A program made the translations under genes and the position numbers. Shown in pieces: positions 19,874 to 38,052 of a DNA stretch of 64,000 bases. A model generated the notes under the pieces. The model made no database searches, had not been told where the DNA came from, and saw nothing but the letters and a program-made list of their open reading frames with translations. Source of the DNA: Candidatus Woesearchaeota archaeon. Lineage in GTDB: Archaea; Nanobdellota; Nanobdellia; Woesearchaeales; JABGUJ01. The DNA lies in NCBI GenBank assembly GCA_018646625.1, contig JABGUJ010000001.1:441534-505533 (forward strand), written 5' to 3'. Position 1 is the first letter of the stretch. Each line of letters begins with the position of its first letter.

Positions 19874-20755
19874 ATGGTACACGAGCATCTAGAACTGGCA
19901 ATAAAAGCTGCATTGGCTGCTGGAGACAAGATCATGGAGATTAGAGACTCCGGAGACCTTGGAACTAGAGAAAAAAGCGACAGAACGCTTGTAACCCTTG
20001 CAGACACAGAAGCTCAAAGAATCATTCTAAACATCCTTTCAGAATCAAATATTCCTATTCAAGGAGAAGAATATGATCCGGAATTAGCAGAATACAATGC
20101 AAGACTTCTAACTGTTGGAGAAAATCCAACTACATTTTGGTCGGTTGATCCGGTTGATGGAACAAGAGATCTCGCAGAAGGTATTGATGATTTTGTTGTA
20201 AGTATTGCGCTAGTAAGTGATCATCATTCAAGACTTGGTGTATTGTACGCGCCTGCAAGAAAACAACTTTGGTTTGCGGATCAAGATACGCCAACACATT
20301 ACAGTGAAGATGTCGACATAGTTAAGGGCGTGCATAAAAAAGTTAAATGGCCCAATAACATGGCTTCATTCGACGACGCAATTATGCTTGCCAGTCCCTC
20401 GGAAATGAAAAAAGATTACTTTAAAGCATTCTTAAGAGAAATAAACAAAGAACAACAAGTTAAAGAAATAGGAAGTACTGCATTAAAGTGTGCACTTCTT
20501 ACTCTGGGAGAAGGAGATGTTTATGCTTCATTGCATAACTTAAACCCTAAAAACCCAGGATTAATCAGAGACTGGGACATAGCAGCAGCAGATATTATTC
20601 TACAAAAAGCAGGAGGCTGCCTAGTAACTCTAACTGGCTACTCTCCAAGATATCACTTCGACGCACCAAAACAAAGAAATGGCGCAATAGGCTACAGGAA
20701 CGTTGTAAACCATCCAGATTACTTAAGAAAAATGCAACCACATCTGCCTAAGTAA
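19874..20755 (+). CDS. Inositol monophosphatase/CysQ-family phosphatase
   Basis: Metal-dependent, lithium-sensitive-type phosphatase of 293 residues. Family motifs are in order: IQGEEYD (62-68), WSVDPVDGTRDL (89-100) and RDWDIAAADIILQKAGG in the last third. Together they bind the catalytic metals. The substrate could be inositol-1-phosphate, fructose-1,6-bisphosphate or 3'-phosphoadenosine-5'-phosphate; a CysQ-like role is my best guess. It diverges from the large membrane protein gene and lies just before the uS2 promoter. Confidence 0.88.
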   Translation: MVHEHLELAIKAALAAGDKIMEIRDSGDLGTREKSDRTLVTLADTEAQRIILNILSESNIPIQGEEYDPELAEYNARLLTVGENPTTFWSVDPVDGTRDLAEGIDDFVVSIALVSDHHSRLGVLYAPARKQLWFADQDTPTHYSEDVDIVKGVHKKVKWPNNMASFDDAIMLASPSEMKKDYFKAFLREINKEQQVKEIGSTALKCALLTLGEGDVYASLHNLNPKNPGLIRDWDIAAADIILQKAGGCLVTLTGYSPRYHFDAPKQRNGAIGYRNVVNHPDYLRKMQPHLPK

Positions 20756-20756
20756 G

Positions 20757-20891
20757 CTTTATATATCATCAATTTAAAATTAAACATAAATGCCTAGTAT
20801 GGGTCAAAGCACGAAAGTGGGGCGCATACACACTGCAGAGGCGATAAAAATGCAGTACAGAGAATCTAATTCTGTGCTGGGAGAACATAAA
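20757..20891 (+). promoter_or_regulatory. uS2 promoter and about 100-nt leader
   Basis: A CTTTATATAT TATA box (20757-20766) predicts a transcription start near 20790. An in-frame ATG exists at 20790. However, the conserved uS2 N terminus begins at the ATG at 20892, preceded by GGGAG about 9 nt upstream. The interval is either a leader that could serve feedback control or a 34-residue N-terminal extension. Confidence 0.45.
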
Positions 20892-29683: not shown

Positions 29684-31358
29684 CTTTTTCTTCCTCCTGA
29701 GGCTCTTCCTCGCCTATTTTCGCAAAATCTTCATCATACTCTTGGTTATCCGCTTTGATATCTTTTAATTTACCCCTACTTTGTTCTAGTAAATCTTTAA
29801 GATTCTCCTCAATCATTTTTTCGTCTGTTTCTTTAAGGCTTAATATCTTTTTCAAAGCGTCTGCAACATGCGGTATGTATTTTTCAATGTAACCTCTTTT
29901 CTTCATCTCATCTTTCATCCTTCTCTTCTTAGAAGTGTACTTTGCTAATTTTCTACCACACTCTTGCAATGCTAATTTCATCTCTTTAATTATCTCAGGA
30001 TAATGTGCTAATGCCTCCTTAGCTTCACTAGTAAATGGAACCCACACAGAAGACATGTGAACAAGTATAATTGCGGGCCCTACAGGAATAGATCTTCTAC
30101 TTTGCTGCAATCCATAATTTTTCCAAGCTGTACCCATAACAGAATCTGTGCACGCACACGCTCCTTGCTGAAGCTGCAGTGGAACTCTGTTCGCAAATCT
30201 CATTATTTTAACTTGTTTATCTCCTTCTATATCTCCACCGTATGCTATTGCGCATTCAATCACAAATGGATTACCTCTATAAACTGAAGGCGGTCTTGTT
30301 GTTGCACAATAAAACTCTGCTTTGATTTCTTTCTTTAGGCCTCTTTCAAGATCATTTGAACCAATTGGAGTTATACAATCCGTTGGTGGCGCCATAATTT
30401 TAGTATTTTGAATTGCCTTGAGAATTCTCTCAGACATGTCTCTGTTAATTTCAGATGGTTTTGTGTTCGGCAAAATCTTTGCTTTTTCACAAACTTCTTT
30501 TGCAACCGCAGAACTAACTCTGGAAAATTCACCATGTAAGAAACTTTGAATAGATCTGGAATCAGTGCTCTCAATCATTTTGATAAGCATTCCTAACTCA
30601 ACACCATGAGGGTGAGGCTTGATGCTTTTTGCTTCTTTTGGAAGCACGTCTGTAGCTCTAGGAAATATAATTTGATTAGCTTTAGGATCTGTATATATTA
30701 TGGTGCAGTGCGGATTAACAATGGCGGTTTGTTTGATGTATGTATCAACTGACTGTTGGCCTTTTTGATAAATCGCATCCATATCTAATTCAATTCTTGT
30801 TCCCGTTTCCGCAGACCAATGCACAACTTCTTCTTTTATTATTTTTGGAGTATTAGTTTTGGTGTCGATAAACAATTCGTAATAGTGCGCGGGTTCATCT
30901 TTGTGAATTTTAGATGTGATCCTTATAGGTTTTCCAGTAGTTAATTGTCCGTACAATGCTGCTGCGCTTATACCTATACCTTGTTGACCTCTTGATTGTT
31001 TAAGAGAATGGAACTTACTTCCATACAGAAGCTTTGCAAAAATCATAGGAATCTGTTTCTTTACAATCCCTGGACCATTATCTTCAACAATAATCCTAAA
31101 TCTCTCATTGTTCATATCTATTATTTCAACAGAAATTTCAGGAAGAATTCTTGCTTCTTCACAAGCATCTAATGAATTATCTACTGCTTCTTTTATTGTT
31201 GTCAATAAAGCCTTTCTTTTATTATCGAAACCTAATAGGTGTCTATTCTTCTCAAAGAACTCGGCTACAGAGATAGATCTCTGCTTCTTCGCCATTTCGT
31301 GTGCTTTAGAAGTTTTTTTCCCTTTTGAATTGCCTTCTGCAAGAGTTTTTTGAACCAT
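29676..31358 (-). CDS. top6B: DNA topoisomerase VI subunit B
   Basis: GHKL-type ATPase subunit, 560 residues. The N box EAVDNSLDACEEA is at 58-70, DNGPGI at 93-98 and GQQGIGISA at 125-133. An H2TH insert and transducer domain follow, and the C terminus is acidic. ATP-driven dimerisation opens and closes the enzyme around the crossing DNA. It heads the top6B-top6A-cyclophilin unit. A TATA-like stretch lies near 31395-31405. Confidence 0.95.
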   Translation of the reverse strand: MVQKTLAEGNSKGKKTSKAHEMAKKQRSISVAEFFEKNRHLLGFDNKRKALLTTIKEAVDNSLDACEEARILPEISVEIIDMNNERFRIIVEDNGPGIVKKQIPMIFAKLLYGSKFHSLKQSRGQQGIGISAAALYGQLTTGKPIRITSKIHKDEPAHYYELFIDTKTNTPKIIKEEVVHWSAETGTRIELDMDAIYQKGQQSVDTYIKQTAIVNPHCTIIYTDPKANQIIFPRATDVLPKEAKSIKPHPHGVELGMLIKMIESTDSRSIQSFLHGEFSRVSSAVAKEVCEKAKILPNTKPSEINRDMSERILKAIQNTKIMAPPTDCITPIGSNDLERGLKKEIKAEFYCATTRPPSVYRGNPFVIECAIAYGGDIEGDKQVKIMRFANRVPLQLQQGACACTDSVMGTAWKNYGLQQSRRSIPVGPAIILVHMSSVWVPFTSEAKEALAHYPEIIKEMKLALQECGRKLAKYTSKKRRMKDEMKKRGYIEKYIPHVADALKKILSLKETDEKMIEENLKDLLEQSRGKLKDIKADNQEYDEDFAKIGEEEPQEEEKDE

Positions 31359-31430
31359 TAATAAATCAACCTCTTTACTTTTTCAATCTCTGATAGATTA
31401 TTAATAAATCTTTCTGATGAATAACTAAAC

Positions 31431-31982
31431 TCAAAACGGAGATCTTTCTTCAATCTTCATTTGAGTTCGTCGTTTTTCTAACCATTTGTAAACATGAGAG
31501 TGAGGTGCGCCACCCAACAGACTTTCTATTGCTCGTCTAGCCGCACTTACATTTTCAGGCATACCGATAATTCCTACGGTTTTACCATAAACTGAAATAT
31601 ATGTCTCTGACAATTCTTCGATAACTTGTCTTGATTTACCTTCTTTACCTATAATTCGCCCCTTAAATCTAATTGTTTTATTAGTAGACTTTCCAACATA
31701 ATCTGAAATATTTAATAGTTCTAAAGAATAATCTGATTTTAACAATAAAAGTGCGATGTCTGGATTAAATCCTCTACCTATTGCTCTAACAACGTTTAAT
31801 GCCGTAAATATCTTTAAACTATCCGGGCCTTTGATAATAACATCGCCTTCTTTAGAATCAACATCAATGTAAGAATCAGTACTTTCTTCAATATCTTTCT
31901 TTGCTTCGCCGCCCTTACCTATAAGGACTGCAACTCTTTCTTTAGGGATTTTGATTTCATAGGAAAATTCTTCGGAGGTCAT
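31431..31982 (-). CDS. KH-domain RNA-binding protein, Pno1/Dim2-like
   Basis: 183 residues with two KH folds. The first has VLIGKGGEAKKDIEE (about 18-32). The second has GRIIGKEGKSRQVIEELSE (about 107-125), followed by the conserved ARRAIESLLGGAPHSHVYKWLE tail elements. This matches the archaeal Dim2/Pno1 homologue that works in 3' maturation of small-subunit rRNA. In many archaea it lies next to rio1. Here rio1 is 5.3 kb away, across four plus-strand genes. Confidence 0.88.
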   Translation of the reverse strand: MTSEEFSYEIKIPKERVAVLIGKGGEAKKDIEESTDSYIDVDSKEGDVIIKGPDSLKIFTALNVVRAIGRGFNPDIALLLLKSDYSLELLNISDYVGKSTNKTIRFKGRIIGKEGKSRQVIEELSETYISVYGKTVGIIGMPENVSAARRAIESLLGGAPHSHVYKWLEKRRTQMKIEERSPF

Positions 31983-32110
31983 ATTTCATCAATTTAATCA
32001 TTCATTTTTAAACCTTTTTAAAATGAAGCACTATCTTCAAATTCTCGATCTGTTAGGGCTCTCGACGTGGTATTCTCTCTTTTTGCTTTATCTATAAATG
32101 CTTTGGAAAG

Positions 32111-32142
32111 GCTTATAAATTGGTCCATATTTAAATGGACCA
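32111..32142 (+). promoter_or_regulatory. Promoter with perfect 8-bp inverted repeat over the start site
   Basis: TATA box GCTTATAAAT (32111-32120) is followed directly by TGGTCCAT (32121-32128), a 6-nt AT spacer and ATGGACCA (32135-32142). The last A is the first base of the ATG. A protein bound here would block the start of transcription. The gene's product carries a cytoplasmic winged helix, so this is a likely autoregulatory operator. Confidence 0.6.
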
Positions 32143-33275
32143 TGTTTGATAAAGCATACAAGTTAGCTGGAGCGGTTATAGTGCTCTCTTTGCTACTATT
32201 ATCTTGCTCTGTTTATGCTCAAGATGTTATGCACGTTTCTGAGAAAGTTACACTGAAAAGACCGGGAGACTCTTTTGTTAACGTCGATTTCCTAGTCAAA
32301 GATGCTCAATCTAATCAACCTATTGTCGATGTTCCTATAAAGATTACTCTTCTCGATATAAGGGATGGCGGCGAAGTTTCATTTGTAAAATATTTAGACA
32401 ACTCAGGAATATTCAATTACAAAATAGCTGATGGTCCTTGGTTGTTAACTGCTGAGGTGGATGACTCTGAAACATCGGAAGTTGATTTCTTTGGAGAACA
32501 AGTACTTTCGATTTCTGAAGATTCTGTCGAAAACGTAGTTTTCCTTATTCCTGTTGGTGCTATTGAGGGGCGAGTTGTTGACGATGATACGAATCTTGTT
32601 AATGGTGCAGATCTTCAATTCATTTGTAAATCTAACATAGAGACCGATTATCCTGATAAAACAAATCTTTTTGGTACATTCACAAAGAAGGTTGTTCCTG
32701 TTGGTGTGTGTAAAATATCTGCAGCTTTTGGTAGTAAGACGGGATCTTCTACTGTTGAAATATTGCAAGGGCAAGAAGCTAGTGTTGATATTGTGTTGGA
32801 CCAATCCATTGAAAACGGCGGAACTTCCACTTCGAAGGTGCTTTATGTGGTTGGTGTTATAGTCCTTATAGCTTTAATTGCTGCTTTAGTTACTTTTTTC
32901 ATTATTAGAAAACCTAAGAAAGATCGTGGCTCGGTAACTGAGGTTCAAAATATTGAGTTTGATACTTCTTCATCCGGTGATGATAATTCTGATTCCTCTA
33001 CTGTTGTTAATGTAGTTAGCGGTAATGATGCTCTTAACTTAAGAGCTAAAGATATCTTAAATACGCTTAATGAACGTGAAAGACAAATTGTTGAGTTTCT
33101 CCTTGAAAGCGATAACAAAAGCACCCAAGCCAAGATAAGAAACTCCACAGGCATTCCTAAAACCTCTTTGGCTCGTATATTCTTGTCTCTTGAGAAGAAG
33201 AAGGTCTTAAACATTGAGACCATAGGAAAACTCAAGAAAATATATCTTACTAACTGGTTTTTGGGAAAAGAATAA
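32142..33275 (+). CDS. Membrane-tethered winged-helix regulator with exported sensor domain
   Basis: 377 residues. The signal peptide (about 1-26, ending SVYAQ) is followed by an exported beta-rich region that resembles carboxypeptidase-regulatory/PEGA-type repeats (30-240). One membrane helix (about 247-269) precedes an acidic linker. A C-terminal winged helix (about 305-377, RERQIVEFLLESDNKSTQAK with GIPKTSLARIF) ends the protein. This is a one-component transmembrane regulator. The start at 32142 gives a clean signal peptide and a leaderless transcript; the open frame extends back to 32067. Its ligand is unknown. Confidence 0.78.
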   Translation: MFDKAYKLAGAVIVLSLLLLSCSVYAQDVMHVSEKVTLKRPGDSFVNVDFLVKDAQSNQPIVDVPIKITLLDIRDGGEVSFVKYLDNSGIFNYKIADGPWLLTAEVDDSETSEVDFFGEQVLSISEDSVENVVFLIPVGAIEGRVVDDDTNLVNGADLQFICKSNIETDYPDKTNLFGTFTKKVVPVGVCKISAAFGSKTGSSTVEILQGQEASVDIVLDQSIENGGTSTSKVLYVVGVIVLIALIAALVTFFIIRKPKKDRGSVTEVQNIEFDTSSSGDDNSDSSTVVNVVSGNDALNLRAKDILNTLNERERQIVEFLLESDNKSTQAKIRNSTGIPKTSLARIFLSLEKKKVLNIETIGKLKKIYLTNWFLGKE

Positions 33276-33350
33276 AAGGTCTTCTTAGAATTCTCTTCTA
33301 CGTGAACGGACCATTAAACGATCTTGTTTCTTCTTATTTGCCTGAGTAAG

Positions 33351-33377
33351 ATTTAAATATAGGAACCCTCCCTTCCT
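33351..33377 (+). promoter_or_regulatory. TATA box with adjacent inverted repeat
   Basis: ATTTAAATAT (33351-33360) is followed at once by AGGAA-CCCTCCC-TTCCT (33361-33377), a perfect 5-bp inverted repeat in the position of an operator. It drives a short gene-free stretch that ends in a hairpin and T-run. Confidence 0.45.
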
Positions 33378-33440
33378 GTATGGGCTATTTTATTTAACAA
33401 AGATGTGCGCGGACATCGCGTTCCGCACTTTCTTTTTTTT
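33378..33440 (+). ncRNA. Candidate short RNA ending in a terminator hairpin
   Basis: Between the TATA box at 33351 and the T-run at 33429-33440 lies about 60 nt without a credible protein gene. The 3' part folds as GTGC-(GC)-GGA with TCC-GCAC (33405-33428), directly followed by TTTCTTTTTTTT. Its own promoter and terminator suggest a small RNA, or an attenuated leader for the gene at 33505. Confidence 0.35.
33405..33440 (+). terminator. Hairpin plus T-run
   Basis: A 7-bp stem with a 2-nt bulge, followed by ten T residues interrupted by one C. It is clearly of the intrinsic terminator type. It would end both the regulator transcript and any RNA begun at 33378. Confidence 0.6.
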
Positions 33441-33462
33441 CTAAATCTACTATTACATAACT

Positions 33463-33504
33463 TTTATATAGTCTGAAAGCCAATAATTCATCGGGGGACG
33501 CGAA
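33463..33504 (+). promoter_or_regulatory. Promoter and unusual CGGGGGACG start-site motif
   Basis: TTTATATA (33463-33470) predicts transcription from about 33495. CGGGGGACG (33492-33500) lies 4 nt before the ATG. The same nine bases occur 3 nt before the ATG at 40172. This is closer and G-richer than a normal ribosome binding site. Confidence 0.45.
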
Positions 33505-34101
33505 ATGAACATTAATAGAATTTCATTGCTAGTTGTTGTATTAGCGATCGCTATACTTGCGTCTCACTCGGTTTTTGCAGGTGCTAAGTTTACTGGCGGC
33601 GCAGGATCCTTTACAGATATTAATTTTTTTGGAAAACAATACACTGTTACAGTTCTTAAAATCGATAATGATCGTTATACTAACATGCGAGACAGATCTT
33701 GTTCTTTTAGTGTTGGCAGATTTAGAGAAGATATTGAGCTTTATCAAAATAAGCGAGTTGACGAGGTAGGAATCACAGTAAGTGACATTTATCGAGAGGA
33801 CAACATGAATCTTTGTGAATTTACTATTGCTGGTGAGATTTTATATTCTAAAATGATTTTACCTGGTGATGAAATTCTTCCACCCACTCCTGTTGAAGTG
33901 ATAAACAAAACTCCGTCAGTTGAAACAATTCCTAACGAATCTTCTCAAGAGGTTATTAAATCTGTTGAAGAACCATTGGAAAACGATTCTGAATTAGAAC
34001 CTGTGACTGAACCTACTGAAGGTAAATCTACTCGTGTGGTTCAAGTGAAAAAGCATTCTTTTGTTGCCTGGATAAAGAGTATTTATGGGAAATTATTCTA
34101 A
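33505..34101 (+). CDS. Secreted protein, unrecognised
   Basis: 198 residues with a clear signal peptide (about 1-25, ending SVFAG). An exported domain (26-120) contains two or three Cys and a beta-rich pattern (FFGKQYTVTVLKIDND). A long Pro/Glu/Thr-rich linker follows (about 128-178), then a basic amphipathic tail (VKKHSFVAWIKSIYGKLF). No enzyme motif was seen. It lies in the insert that splits rio1 from pno1, next to two surface/regulatory genes. Confidence 0.7.
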   Translation: MNINRISLLVVVLAIAILASHSVFAGAKFTGGAGSFTDINFFGKQYTVTVLKIDNDRYTNMRDRSCSFSVGRFREDIELYQNKRVDEVGITVSDIYREDNMNLCEFTIAGEILYSKMILPGDEILPPTPVEVINKTPSVETIPNESSQEVIKSVEEPLENDSELEPVTEPTEGKSTRVVQVKKHSFVAWIKSIYGKLF

Positions 34102-34526
34102 TTCTTGGTTTGCATTTTTATCTTAATTATTTTGGTTGTTTTCTCATATTATTTGATTTAGGCACTATTTAATTATGTGGTGCGAATACTTCTATATATG
34201 TTATTATGATCTTATATGCTTGATATTGCTTCCCGCATTATTGGTATTTCTCTTAGTTTGTAGTTCGCGCCATATCTATTATTTTCTTTAATATTCTATT
34301 ATCTTCCTATTTTGTTGGGTTTTATCTCGTATACTGTGTTTAATTACGTTTGTTTTCCCTTATTATTGGTTTATATCTTATATGATGGATAATCTTCTTA
34401 TAATATCTGTTTTATTCTCGTGTATTGTATATTTAATTGTGGTTTTATACAATTAAATAAGAAAATTATCTTGTATAATTGGTTTTATTCGCAATATTTA
34501 TATACTATTTTTGTGATTATTTGCTT
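34102..34526 (+). other. T-rich gene-free stretch with diverged repeats and a promoter
   Basis: No credible gene was seen. The plus strand is strikingly T-rich. An imperfect direct repeat of about 30 nt (34313-34348 and 34406-34442, sharing GTTTTAT-CTCGT and TTTAATT blocks) is followed by a shorter third copy near 34481. Inverted arms TTATACAA (34445-34452) and TTGTATAA (34471-34478) stand just before the TATA box ATATTTATATA (about 34494-34504). Its expected start coincides with the ATG at 34527. Confidence 0.45.
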
Positions 34527-35024
34527 ATGCGCAGAGATTCAGACCATTCTGAGATGGAAAAATCAGATCTAGATCTTATGCTGAATTTCTTTGATCACTT
34601 TAAGAAAAAATATAATATGAGCTCTCAAGACATTGCACAACTTATCACGCAACAATCTAATGAATTCATTCCACTCTGCATCTTTAACAATAAGTCTCTT
34701 AGTGTTTTCGAAGCTATTGTAAAATATCTTGTTGATAGTAGAGAGCTAAGCCTGAAGAAGGTTTCAACACTTCTAAATCGAAATTACAGTACGATTTGGA
34801 CTACACATTCTAATGCAAAGAAAAAACTTAAGGCAAGTTTCAAGATAGAATCGTGCAAACAAATTCCAATTTCCATCTTTTCTGATTCCAAATACACTAT
34901 TTTCGAATCTCTTGTTAAATTTCTCAAAGAAGAAGAAGAACTTCCTAATTATGAAATTGCTAAGTTGTTGAATCGTAACAACAAAACCATTTGGACAATT
35001 TACAATAATACTAAGAAAAAATGA
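34527..35024 (+). CDS. Tandem helix-turn-helix protein
   Basis: 165 residues, small and basic. Two copies of a 50-odd-residue unit are clear: IFNNKSLSVFEAIVKYLVDS with STLLNRNYSTIW, then IFSDSKYTIFESLVKFLKEE with AKLLNRNNKTIW. Each unit looks like a sigma-region-4/HTH fold with LLNRNxxTIW as recognition helix. A transcription regulator is likely. The ATG at 34527 fits a leaderless start. Its last codons overlap the next gene by 4 nt (ATGA), tying it to the surface protein that follows. Confidence 0.72.
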   Translation: MRRDSDHSEMEKSDLDLMLNFFDHFKKKYNMSSQDIAQLITQQSNEFIPLCIFNNKSLSVFEAIVKYLVDSRELSLKKVSTLLNRNYSTIWTTHSNAKKKLKASFKIESCKQIPISIFSDSKYTIFESLVKFLKEEEELPNYEIAKLLNRNNKTIWTIYNNTKKK

Positions 35025-37333
35025 ACTGCATAACAAAAGCAACGAAGTTGGCCATTATGCTAATTTTAGCTATGCTTTTGTTATTATCATTTACTTACGC
35101 TCAAGGGTATGGTGAGTTCTTAGAAAGTGAAAGCGGAGTTCCTGTAACTATTACTGAAGAGGATGATGCTTGTACTGATGGAGTGTTTGATATCTTTAAT
35201 GGAGAAACGGACACCGACTGTGGTGGTAAGACTTGCGACAGATGTGAAGTAGAACAAAAATGTTTTGTACATGCTGACTGCGACTCTAGATTGTGTAAAT
35301 GTGTTGAAGAACCAGTTTGTGAAGATGAAAACGGGTGTCCTAACTTAATTTGTACTAAAAGAGAATGCTTTGATCGTTTTGCAGATCTATTATGTACTAA
35401 TGCGAGACTAGATGAAGATAATGAAGAGACTGATGTTGATTGCGGCGGTACTCTCTGTAGTAAATGTAGAATGGGTGATGAGTGTAAAGAAGACTCAGAT
35501 TGTAAAGAAGGTCTTTGTGAAGGAGATGTTTGCGTCTCTGATCAGGTTTCTGAACTATGTAACAATGATCAATTAGACAATGAAACATTAGAAACTGATG
35601 TAGATTGTGGTGGTGAGTGTAAATTGTGTGGTATTGGTTCATTCTGTCTTGATAACTCTGACTGTGATTCAAATAACTGTGCTGAATCAATCTGTCAAGA
35701 AGCAGAAGAAGAATCTGAAGAAGAACAAGAACCTGTAACTGAGACACCTGCAGAAATATTTGAAAGCCAGTCCGAAGAACCTGAAGAAAATGCTACTGCT
35801 GGTTATGATTTTGTGGAAGAAGAGGTTGATGTATTCTTAGATGAGGGCGAAGTTAAAGTAGTCATCAACGAGAAAGAGTATACTATGTTGCTAAAAGATG
35901 TTATGTTTTCGTCAAGACATGAAACAGATGTTTGTGCAATCGAAGTAAACGAAGAATTATTCATTGTACCTAAAGATGAGTATGTTCTTGCAAATGGTAT
36001 ATTCATTAATCCTGTGCTGGTTAGCACAAAAGGTGCGTTAGGTTGTAGAGTCAACGTATATTCAAGCAATTATGGTGTGTATAAATACAATAAAGAAAGC
36101 TTTACTGAAAAAACTAGAGAAGAATTATTGGAACTATTCTGGCAAGATAAAACATCAACAAAAGAAGTTGATAAAGAATACCACATAACTTTATTGGATG
36201 CAATAAAAACTGAAGATCCTTCAAAATCTAGTTGCAAGTTCACAATTGGAGATGAAAGTCATGATGTAAAACTTGGAAGCCTAATTAGTTTCTCCAATAG
36301 ATATCTTGGCGTTGCTGATGTATTAACATCTTATCGTCCTGAACAAGATTCAGATGCTTGTGAATTAGGGTACATCTGGGAAGATCAAGAAGTAACTCTT
36401 CCTAGACACGAATTCCTTAAAACGGAGCCAAAACCTAAACAAGAAGCTGATGATTTATCTTGCGATGACACAACAGACAATAATTTTTACACGAAGAATG
36501 AGATAAAACTAAACACTAAAACATATACTGATATGTGCGCAAAGAAAATACTAAAAGATTTTTTCTGCTCAAATGGGGAACTAAGATCTGTATACTTTGA
36601 GTGTCCAAAAAGTTGTAGTCAAGGAGCCTGCGAAGAGATCACTCTTGGTAATACGTTATCATCTTCTTCATATGTTACACACACAACATCAAATATTGTG
36701 CGGATGAAATGGTTAAAATCTAGATTACTAATAGAGTTGGAGGGTGAATCTAATATCGATGGTATCCTGACTATGAAAACTAAAGAATCTCCTGAGGGTA
36801 TTAGAATAGATAATAAAGTAATAGAACAAAATACTGACTGGATCTGGAACAATATTGATTCTGAATTAACGATATACTATACACACTCAAAACACACTAT
36901 AATAATATCATTTGAAGAAGAACAAGCACCGGTTGTGGAAAGGCCTCAACCTCCCAAAACAGAACCTGAACCGGTCCAACCTCAACCAGAACCAGTTGAA
37001 GCTGGATTTGATATGAGTTTATTGAAATGGATCATAGCGGGAGTTTTAGCAATCTTCTTACTCATGGGCTTCGTATTAGTTAAGGCATATCATCCTGGTG
37101 CATCTGCTAACGCGCAACAAACCATGCAGAAAATGGCACAACAACATCAAGTGCACGAGTTTAATCCTCAAATTGAAAAGTTAAAAGACTTCATTAGATC
37201 GTCATTAGCCAAAGGATTTAATCCTCAACAAATCAATGATGCGTTGTTTAAAATGGGTTGGAGTAACGATCTTATTGCTGAAGCATTCAATGAAATAAGA
37301 GAAGAATCTCAACTCAATCAACAGAGAAGATAG
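35021..37333 (+). CDS. Cys-rich surface protein with cytoplasmic helical tail
   Basis: 770 residues. A signal peptide (about 1-27) precedes three Cys-rich repeats (about 49-95, 125-172 and 180-225), each with ETDxDCGG, CxxC and a later DC. An acidic linker and a large exported region (about 265-640) follow. After a Pro/Glu linker there is one membrane helix (667-684) and a cytoplasmic tail. The tail ends in a small helical domain (ROUGH pattern LxxFI-ALxKMGW-LIxEAF) that recurs in DPANN membrane proteins. It is translated in coupling with the tandem-HTH gene. A receptor or adhesin role is inferred. Confidence 0.75.
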   Translation: MNCITKATKLAIMLILAMLLLLSFTYAQGYGEFLESESGVPVTITEEDDACTDGVFDIFNGETDTDCGGKTCDRCEVEQKCFVHADCDSRLCKCVEEPVCEDENGCPNLICTKRECFDRFADLLCTNARLDEDNEETDVDCGGTLCSKCRMGDECKEDSDCKEGLCEGDVCVSDQVSELCNNDQLDNETLETDVDCGGECKLCGIGSFCLDNSDCDSNNCAESICQEAEEESEEEQEPVTETPAEIFESQSEEPEENATAGYDFVEEEVDVFLDEGEVKVVINEKEYTMLLKDVMFSSRHETDVCAIEVNEELFIVPKDEYVLANGIFINPVLVSTKGALGCRVNVYSSNYGVYKYNKESFTEKTREELLELFWQDKTSTKEVDKEYHITLLDAIKTEDPSKSSCKFTIGDESHDVKLGSLISFSNRYLGVADVLTSYRPEQDSDACELGYIWEDQEVTLPRHEFLKTEPKPKQEADDLSCDDTTDNNFYTKNEIKLNTKTYTDMCAKKILKDFFCSNGELRSVYFECPKSCSQGACEEITLGNTLSSSSYVTHTTSNIVRMKWLKSRLLIELEGESNIDGILTMKTKESPEGIRIDNKVIEQNTDWIWNNIDSELTIYYTHSKHTIIISFEEEQAPVVERPQPPKTEPEPVQPQPEPVEAGFDMSLLKWIIAGVLAIFLLMGFVLVKAYHPGASANAQQTMQKMAQQHQVHEFNPQIEKLKDFIRSSLAKGFNPQQINDALFKMGWSNDLIAEAFNEIREESQLNQQRR

Positions 37334-37335
37334 TT

Positions 37336-38052
37336 CTAAACATGCTCTTTACCAGTTATCTTTTTCCAAATAGTTTCCATTTCTATTTCTGTTCCTATTT
37401 TGGTAAAAAACCTTGCAATGTTTTTACAGTCTCTTTCCAACAACTCTTTTGCTGTAGAACTTTCTATAGATGATGATTGTGAAAAATCAATAAAGTATGG
37501 GTTATCGTCTTTTATCAATATGTTAAACTCACTAAGATCTCCATGAACTAACCCTAGTTGATGTAATTTTTTCATGTATTCAATAATTTTATCAAGCACC
37601 TTTCTTCTTGCCTTTGGAACATAGTCTTTTAATTTTGGAGCAGGCACATCATCGCCAATATATTCTAAGATCAATATGTTATCTCTGATTGCCATGGGTG
37701 TTGGAACTCTTATTCCTTTTTCTCTGGCCTTCATTAAGTTTCTATATTCTCTCTGAGCCCATGTGAATATGATACTCCTTCTTGAATGCTTTACGCTAGA
37801 ATATCTTACATCTAATCGAAGGTAATCGTACATTCTGTTAAAGTCGCACGTCTCCAACCTATATATTTTGATAATAACTATTGTGCCGTCTTTTTTCTCT
37901 GCAGTAAATACGTTCGCTTCTTTACCTAATGCAATGGGACTAAGAATTTCATTGAAGTGTCCTTGAGCCATTAGCTTTGCTATATTTCTCTCGGTCCATT
38001 CATCAAAGACGGTTTTGTATGTCTTGAATTTCTCCTTAGTTATTTTTCCCAT
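37336..38052 (-). CDS. rio1: RIO1-type serine/threonine protein kinase
   Basis: Atypical kinase/ATPase acting in small-subunit ribosome maturation, 238 residues. KEANVFTAEKKDG replaces the glycine loop, Lys62 in VIIKIY is the probable ATP lysine, and LVHGDLSEFNILI (168-180) is the catalytic loop. FIDFSQSS (187-194) is the metal-binding segment. The N-terminal winged helix of RIO2 is absent, so it is RIO1. GAGAGGA lies about 14 nt before the ATG. It ends 2 nt from the convergent surface-protein gene. Confidence 0.93.
   Translation of the reverse strand: MGKITKEKFKTYKTVFDEWTERNIAKLMAQGHFNEILSPIALGKEANVFTAEKKDGTIVIIKIYRLETCDFNRMYDYLRLDVRYSSVKHSRRSIIFTWAQREYRNLMKAREKGIRVPTPMAIRDNILILEYIGDDVPAPKLKDYVPKARRKVLDKIIEYMKKLHQLGLVHGDLSEFNILIKDDNPYFIDFSQSSSIESSTAKELLERDCKNIARFFTKIGTEIEMETIWKKITGKEHV

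Follow-up and report, generated by a model that had tools for sequence, protein, structure and literature searches.

Directly downstream of a gene for a membrane-tethered winged-helix protein, the 64,000-nucleotide stretch of Candidatus Woesearchaeota DNA analysed here (the window) carries a promoter with phased half-sites, and this promoter precedes a predicted small RNA (sRNA). We consider it likely that the protein is a membrane one-component regulator that controls this adjacent sRNA or surface promoter, with a negative autoregulation specific to the window's species. With less assurance, we lean towards a recurring Woesearchaeota surface-to-RNA circuit, in which a conserved sRNA of about 60 nt (GGCUAUC and a hairpin) lies under an adjacent membrane winged-helix regulator. 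Two regulator types, one with GGWCC arrays (-61/-31/0) and one with AAAGYTTTA pairs (20 bp), would be wired to the same RNA, and the window's species would add autorepression through a palindrome. To our knowledge, hardly anything is known of how DPANN archaea, which are small and for the most part uncultured, sense their surface and adjust it. Here sequence alone allows one to read a regulator and its likely DNA code as well as the geometry of the promoter and the RNA output.

Layout of the regulator and related proteins

Homologues of the regulator were sought in two sets of genomes. Of 281 genomes searched across the class, 69 had a match, which in many cases covered the winged helix alone, and when 352 genomes of the order were searched with a profile, 89 matched at E<=1e-15. 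The fragment L029 was dropped from 77 profile matches, and the remaining 76 Woesearchaeota homologues were analysed. The nearest homologues with named records came from Candidatus Woesearchaeota and from other DPANN/Nanoarchaeota metagenome genomes. The regulator gene and its own promoter comprise the following features.

32113-32119, + strand: TATA box TTATAAA of the regulator promoter (sequence; TATAAA enrichment before homologues)
32121-32142, no strand assigned: palindrome TGGTCCAT-N6-ATGGACCA, a proposed autoregulatory operator with two GGWCC half-sites (half-site is that of the family operator)
32142-33275, + strand: regulator gene, 377 aa (homologues start at the matching signal peptide)
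32142-32219, + strand: signal peptide, residues 1-26 (alignment; helix 3-26 in the AlphaFold2 model)
32274-32513, + strand: exported beta-sandwich 1, residues 45-124 (AlphaFold2, VIA)
32529-32795, + strand: exported beta-sandwich 2, residues 130-218, transthyretin-/CarboxypepD_reg-like, with C162 and C190 (Pfam below cut-off; VIA Z 11.9)
32820-32906, + strand: single transmembrane helix, residues 227-255 (AlphaFold2)
33039-33263, + strand: cytoplasmic winged helix, residues 300-374, in which K340 (33159-33161) starts the recognition helix (AlphaFold2, VIA)

The first-pass annotation had proposed an exported sensor-like domain, one membrane helix and a cytoplasmic winged helix, and the AlphaFold2 model bore this out (input, the window protein and ten named homologues; mean pLDDT 79.9). 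Structure prediction of the exported part, which had been put forward there as a check, gave two beta-sandwiches at residues 45-124 and 130-218. In the model, a disordered linker (258-296) lies between the transmembrane helix and the winged helix, and the winged helix modelled alone reached a pLDDT of 93.4. The homologue alignment rows carry a hydrophobic stretch at the position of the transmembrane helix. A longer reading of the gene from GTG at 32067, which would place the TATA box and the palindrome inside the gene, was rejected because the homologues begin at the signal peptide.

The folds were compared with known structures by VIA-align. Residues 139-222 resembled transthyretin-like carboxypeptidase domains (Z range 10-12, up to 11.9) and, at Z 10.0, one domain of SlaB, an S-layer protein, and residues 299-376 resembled the winged helices of TFIIE and MarR (Z 10-11), with MarR-DNA complexes among the best matches. 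Foldseek on the whole regulator model returned mostly Ig-like pilin domains with low TM-scores. The Pfam family CarboxypepD_reg (PF13620) matched the second exported domain with 28 bits (E 2.7e-6), under its curated cut-off of 32.3. In this domain C162 is present in 76/76 and C190 in 74/76 homologues, and this conservation suggests a disulphide. The DUF7343 winged-helix domain (PF24034) is common in archaeal regulators and is used in membrane proteins. Its match to the C-terminal domain was weak (14.8 bits), and we did not adopt the label because this score is below the curated cut-off of 27.6. The predicted fold supports a one-component regulator that is tethered to the membrane, with one part exported and the winged helix in the cytoplasm.

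Transmembrane transcription regulators (TTRs) combine a DNA-binding domain and a transmembrane region in one protein, are mostly single-pass and occur in archaea (PMC10269533). The window protein has a winged helix and at least one transmembrane region (227-255) in the same polypeptide and, as modelled, would be a transmembrane transcription regulator in kind. It differs from the TTRs of that account in that the winged helix stands at the C-terminus, preceded by a signal peptide and an exported sensor. The words 'DPANN' and 'Woesearch' have no occurrence in the main text of that report, and the parts of it drawn on here give no operator, sRNA partner or DPANN case. The window protein also resembles ArnR and ArnR1 of Sulfolobus acidocaldarius, which are archaeal membrane-bound one-component regulators of surface-structure genes that bind repeated boxes upstream of the BRE (PMC6396743). 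Unlike the window protein, however, ArnR and ArnR1 are described as having an N-terminal HTH, a HAMP-like part and two C-terminal transmembrane helices; the ArnR boxes read TCGAC-N5-GTCGA, and the parts of that report drawn on here give no sRNA output (PMC6396743). The ArnR label was rejected, since the window protein has its winged helix at the C-terminus and one transmembrane helix besides the signal peptide.

The downstream promoter and residue 340

The conserved feature of the family was the promoter directly 3' of the regulator gene, with half-sites at -61, -31 and 0 bp abutting the BRE/TATA. Several k-mers were enriched 3' of the stop codon in the 76 homologues, namely GGACC (24/76 vs 7.0 in shuffles), CGGTCC (11/76 vs 0.7), CGCCCAA (11/76 vs 0.45) and TATATA (34/76 vs 6.1). 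Expectation maximisation (EM) gave the motif TtggtCCgCccAAg-TTATATATT, which lies mostly 50-80 nt after the stop and scored >9 in 62/76 homologues. The 14 homologues without a scored element were dropped from the operator statistics; L016, L023, L089 and L099 are among them, with a high posterior and a score <9. A leave-one-out PWM placed 57/62 elements above 10 bits, compared with 18 matches in 550,486 strand-bases elsewhere in the loci. The corresponding features of the window are given below.

33278-33282, no strand assigned: target-promoter site at -61, GGTCT (phasing count)
33308-33312, no strand assigned: target-promoter site at -31, GGACC (phasing count)
33339-33343, no strand assigned: proximal site TGCCT, which abuts the BRE/TATA and is divergent from the family consensus (motif search)
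33351-33361, + strand: TATA region of the sRNA promoter, ATTTAAATATA (sequence)
33381-33442, + strand: predicted small RNA with GGCUAU, a hairpin and a U-tract terminator (covariance model R1; fold)
33505-34101, + strand: next gene, an exported 198-aa protein with its own TATA and a Shine-Dalgarno-like sequence (no Pfam family)

The spacing of the sites was determined by counting GG-sites from the proximal core. Such sites lay within one base of -61 in 40/62 loci, of -31 in 28/62 and of -20 in 15/62, compared with 0-3 loci at each of nine control offsets. In addition, a second exact copy of the locus's own core 5-mer was found in 22/62 loci, vs 9.0 in permutations (p 5e-4). Nearly all of these copies were at 9-10, 20, 31 or 59-61 bp, and these distances would place the sites on one face of the DNA helix. 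Three loci (L017, L022 and L084) have GTTCC half-sites 9-10 bp apart around the TATA, replacing the -61/-31 layout, and Phe at residue 344. Elsewhere in the window, the most similar promoter-like match, at 20740, stands before a gene that resembles ribosomal protein uS2, as judged from its sequence. This element, TGCCTAAGTAAG-TATA at 20745-20767, is nearly identical to the proximal element of the sRNA, TGCCTGAGTAAG, and may be a plain core promoter.

We compared the operator bases with the columns of the protein alignment. The recognition helix begins with residue 340, and it was here that mutual information peaked (z 13.3, vs 6.5 for the next column). Regulators with Arg340 had T at operator column 9 in 15/20 scored loci, and those with Lys340 had other bases in 39/42; the 3 Lys340 loci that depart from this include that of the window, through its proximal site TGCCT. 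A GGWCC downstream of the regulator gene was found in 22/55 Lys340 loci vs 0/20 Arg340 loci, one locus with His at 340 being left out of the K/R counts. Paralogues in one genome are of particular value here, in that the recognition-helix residue and the operators differ together. The residue-operator rule held in all three genomes that have a K and an R paralogue, each with a scored site. In the window's genome the Lys340 regulator has GGWCC sites, whereas the paralogue L006 has Arg340 and TTCCC, and the same operator pairing was seen with the Lys340/Arg340 paralogues of G249 and G525. Because the tree contains no more than about three changes between K and R at residue 340, shared descent may account for part of the residue-operator link; an independent-pair test, which is without power here, gave 1 supported pair. 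The Arg340 paralogue of the window's genome (L006, G000:C4:271905-272867) has a Cys-rich exported protein downstream of its TTCCC-type promoter.

The predicted small RNA and a second regulator type

Most of the scored promoters appear to serve an exported protein. An ORF with a Shine-Dalgarno-like sequence lay within 420 nt of the scored site in 54/62 loci, 3 of these being sRNA loci where the ORF is either doubtful or follows the RNA. At the start of 50 of the 54 ORFs there is a hydrophobic stretch of the kind seen in exported proteins, as judged by a simple hydrophobicity threshold. Pfam searches with four target proteins gave one with CARDB above the cut-off and one with Big_1 below it; the L052 target protein, when scanned, had no Pfam match. 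Repeats such as DNAPASDVVAAVDIA were seen in the targets of L022, L052, L081 and L084, and we take repeats of this kind to be reminiscent of archaeal S-layer proteins.

In the window and eight relatives, the promoter does not directly precede an exported protein but a predicted RNA of about 60 nt, made of GGCUAU and a hairpin with a U-tract. The covariance model R1, which was built from the eight relatives with the window left out, recovered the RNA copy in the window at E 7.1e-4 and, in the whole genome, at E 0.017 as the sole match. Across 19 sRNA sequences, 98.8% of cells were paired and 2 pairs (6 cells) had changed on both sides; none of 500 shuffles reached these values, the 19-sequence alignment being one fitted to the model. 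An eight-sequence MAFFT alignment gave 100% pairing and 4 cells with two-sided changes. Rfam gave no match at E<=1 over the sRNA (window 31000-36000), and on five loci it gave one weak match (E 0.58), far under the gathering score. A literature search, at the level of result entries, found no report of the regulator family, the operator or the RNA. The sRNA family is apparently undescribed and is absent from the Rfam copy searched.

Possible targets of the sRNA were sought through GATAGCC upstream of ATG codons. Among 33 such ATGs that were examined in the loci, 2 were start-like and neither was convincing. The pattern GATAGCCNA-N0-22-ATG in 9 genomes was above its reversed pattern, a control that holds CpG and has no composition match. 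Other putative transcript starts were noted under the same kind of promoter. Downstream of the regulator, L013, L018 and L115 share a conserved start of another kind, ACTCAACCTAAACC, with a hairpin-like stretch after it, and L097 and L099 have a third kind, GCGTTTGGTT. These are possibly other small RNAs or leaders.

The sRNA model matched in 22/352 genomes, made up of the 8 training genomes, that of the window and 13 more. In 10 of these 13 (L126, L127, L130-L134, L136, L137 and L140, with the sRNA at position 1501 of each) the sRNA is divergent to a second type of membrane winged-helix gene. As read from the sequences, this protein has a signal peptide, one beta domain, a transmembrane region and a winged helix. 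In 10/10 cases the neighbour of the sRNA was the genome's best match to this second type. The promoter in these loci contains AAAGYTTTA in 10/10, with two copies exactly 20 bp apart in 7/10, and the count was 0 in 29,352 bases elsewhere in the loci. No membrane winged-helix gene was found by profile in the 1.5-kb flanks of L135 and L138, and the match in L139 is inside an apparent coding stretch and was set aside as probably false. A regulator of the second type is present in the window's genome as well (L142, G000:C1:77459-78151).

The palindrome, the proposed mechanism and its rivals

The first-pass annotation had centred on an exact 8-bp inverted repeat between the TATA box and the start codon. 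We found the repeat exact at 32121-32142 (TGGTCCAT-ATTTAA-ATGGACCA, 8-bp arms and a 6-bp spacer), its last base being the A of the ATG at 32142. About 26 nt lie between the TATA and the ATG, as for a leaderless archaeal transcript. TATAAA was the top k-mer upstream of the homologues (58/76 vs 20.9 in shuffles), and the k-mer search upstream of all 76 returned TATA types, plus tRNA-tail-like k-mers in one family. Bare palindromes of this kind are at chance level. The window contains 26 perfect repeats, where Markov simulations give 25; repeats having 4 or more G/C in each arm number 2 vs 2.35 expected, so the palindrome requires further support. A scan of the genome for the repeat, which the annotation had advised near TATA boxes, was unrewarding: the exact palindrome is a single copy in the 1.57-Mb genome, and with <=3 mismatches it occurred at 4 places genome-wide vs 6 for the reversed-pattern control. 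On these counts it was rejected as a genome-wide regulon marker. Among 75 homologues with K or R at 340, GGWCC at -45..+8 was found before the window's gene only. This is the absence before orthologues that the annotation had named as telling against its proposal, and the palindrome was rejected as a conserved autoregulatory site. A role as an RNA hairpin is unlikely, because the predicted transcript start is at or beyond the palindrome's end.

What raises the palindrome above chance is its position together with its half-site GGWCC, which was found independently at the family's target promoters. Lying between the TATA and a leaderless start, it fits negative autoregulation, in the window's species only. 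The reading of the first-pass annotation holds in part, for the layout of the membrane-tethered regulator and for a palindrome, which carries the family's own half-site; the 'self-contained, autoregulated' switch missed the main, conserved output, which is the downstream promoter array.

What was computed is the layout of domains, the phased array, the sRNA family and the palindrome; from these we infer the binding, the sign of regulation, the signal and the action of the sRNA. The exported beta-sandwiches, with their probable disulphide, would sense the state of the cell surface or envelope, and the one transmembrane helix would relay the signal to the cytoplasmic winged helix, which would bind GGWCC half-sites. 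At the downstream promoter, a regulator on the -61/-31/0 sites would most likely recruit or hold TFB/TBP and so activate transcription. In the window's species the promoter would then yield the ~60-nt sRNA, with its GGCUAU free and a hairpin as terminator, and in most relatives an exported protein. The sRNA may act on other RNAs. Finally, in the window's species only, the two half-sites between the TATA and the leaderless start would allow the regulator to block its own promoter.

It is quite possible, though short of an even chance, that the regulator represses the sRNA or surface promoter and that a surface signal brings de-repression, since a protein bound at the proximal site, which reaches into the BRE side of the core promoter, could exclude TFB. 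However, phased distal sites upstream of the BRE are also the layout described for the boxes of the activator ArnR (PMC6396743), a likeness that is not decisive. For the palindrome, the alternative is that the repeat arose by chance or serves another factor as operator, the regulator then acting on the downstream promoter only. Perfect repeats of its kind are as frequent as in simulations, and it is present in no homologue and has no second copy in the genome. We nevertheless think this somewhat unlikely, because both arms hold GGWCC, the half-site of the target promoters of the K340 relatives and of the site at 33308, and because the sole GGWCC upstream among 75 homologues falls exactly between TATA and start.

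Two further explanations concern the downstream promoter and its product. The element could be recognised by TFB or some other factor and left unbound by the regulator, as a core promoter of unusual type for highly expressed surface genes; the proximal core abuts the BRE, exported genes follow the element in most loci, and the K/R-operator link is confounded by ancestry. This is improbable, given that the -61 and -31 sites are out of TFB's reach, that the core varies jointly across the sites of one locus, that the element is rare elsewhere in the loci, and that cores differ between paralogues of a single genome, which share their basal machinery. The hairpin with its U-tract could be merely a terminator or leader and no functional sRNA. 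Any hairpin with a U-run is able to end transcription, the hairpins of the window and the homologues sit 3' of the regulator gene, and the GATAGCC search gave no target. We hold this to be rather unlikely, however, as the unpaired GGCUAU is conserved as well as the hairpin and the sRNA has its own TATA upstream. Moreover, in the second-type loci the RNA is divergent and so cannot end the transcript of that regulator gene.

The preferred reading, an activating membrane regulator next to an sRNA promoter, follows the same logic as the TfoS/ChiS regulators and the tfoR sRNA of Vibrio cholerae, in which membrane-anchored regulators are described as turning on a small RNA promoter (PMC11856585). 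That system is bacterial and has two cooperating regulators (PMC11856585), and the likeness drawn here is one of logic. By this analogy, drawn from the adjacency and the phased sites, the window protein may work like a TfoS-type sRNA regulator, and the circuit would give archaea a testable equivalent of the TfoS/tfoR switch, in which a bacterial membrane regulator controls an sRNA.

Several genes beyond the sRNA were noted in the window. An ORF at 34479-35024, between exported-protein genes, has two sigma-70-region-4/HTH-like repeats (Pfam Sigma70_r4_2 at the cut-off). The Cys-rich product of 35021-37333 (770 aa) is an exported protein that has a hydrophobic helix at its C-terminus and matched no Pfam family above the cut-off. 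At 37336-38052 the opposite strand carries a gene that its sequence marks as RIO-kinase-like. By eye, such a gene adjoins the sRNA in L010 and L011 too, a possible conserved synteny.
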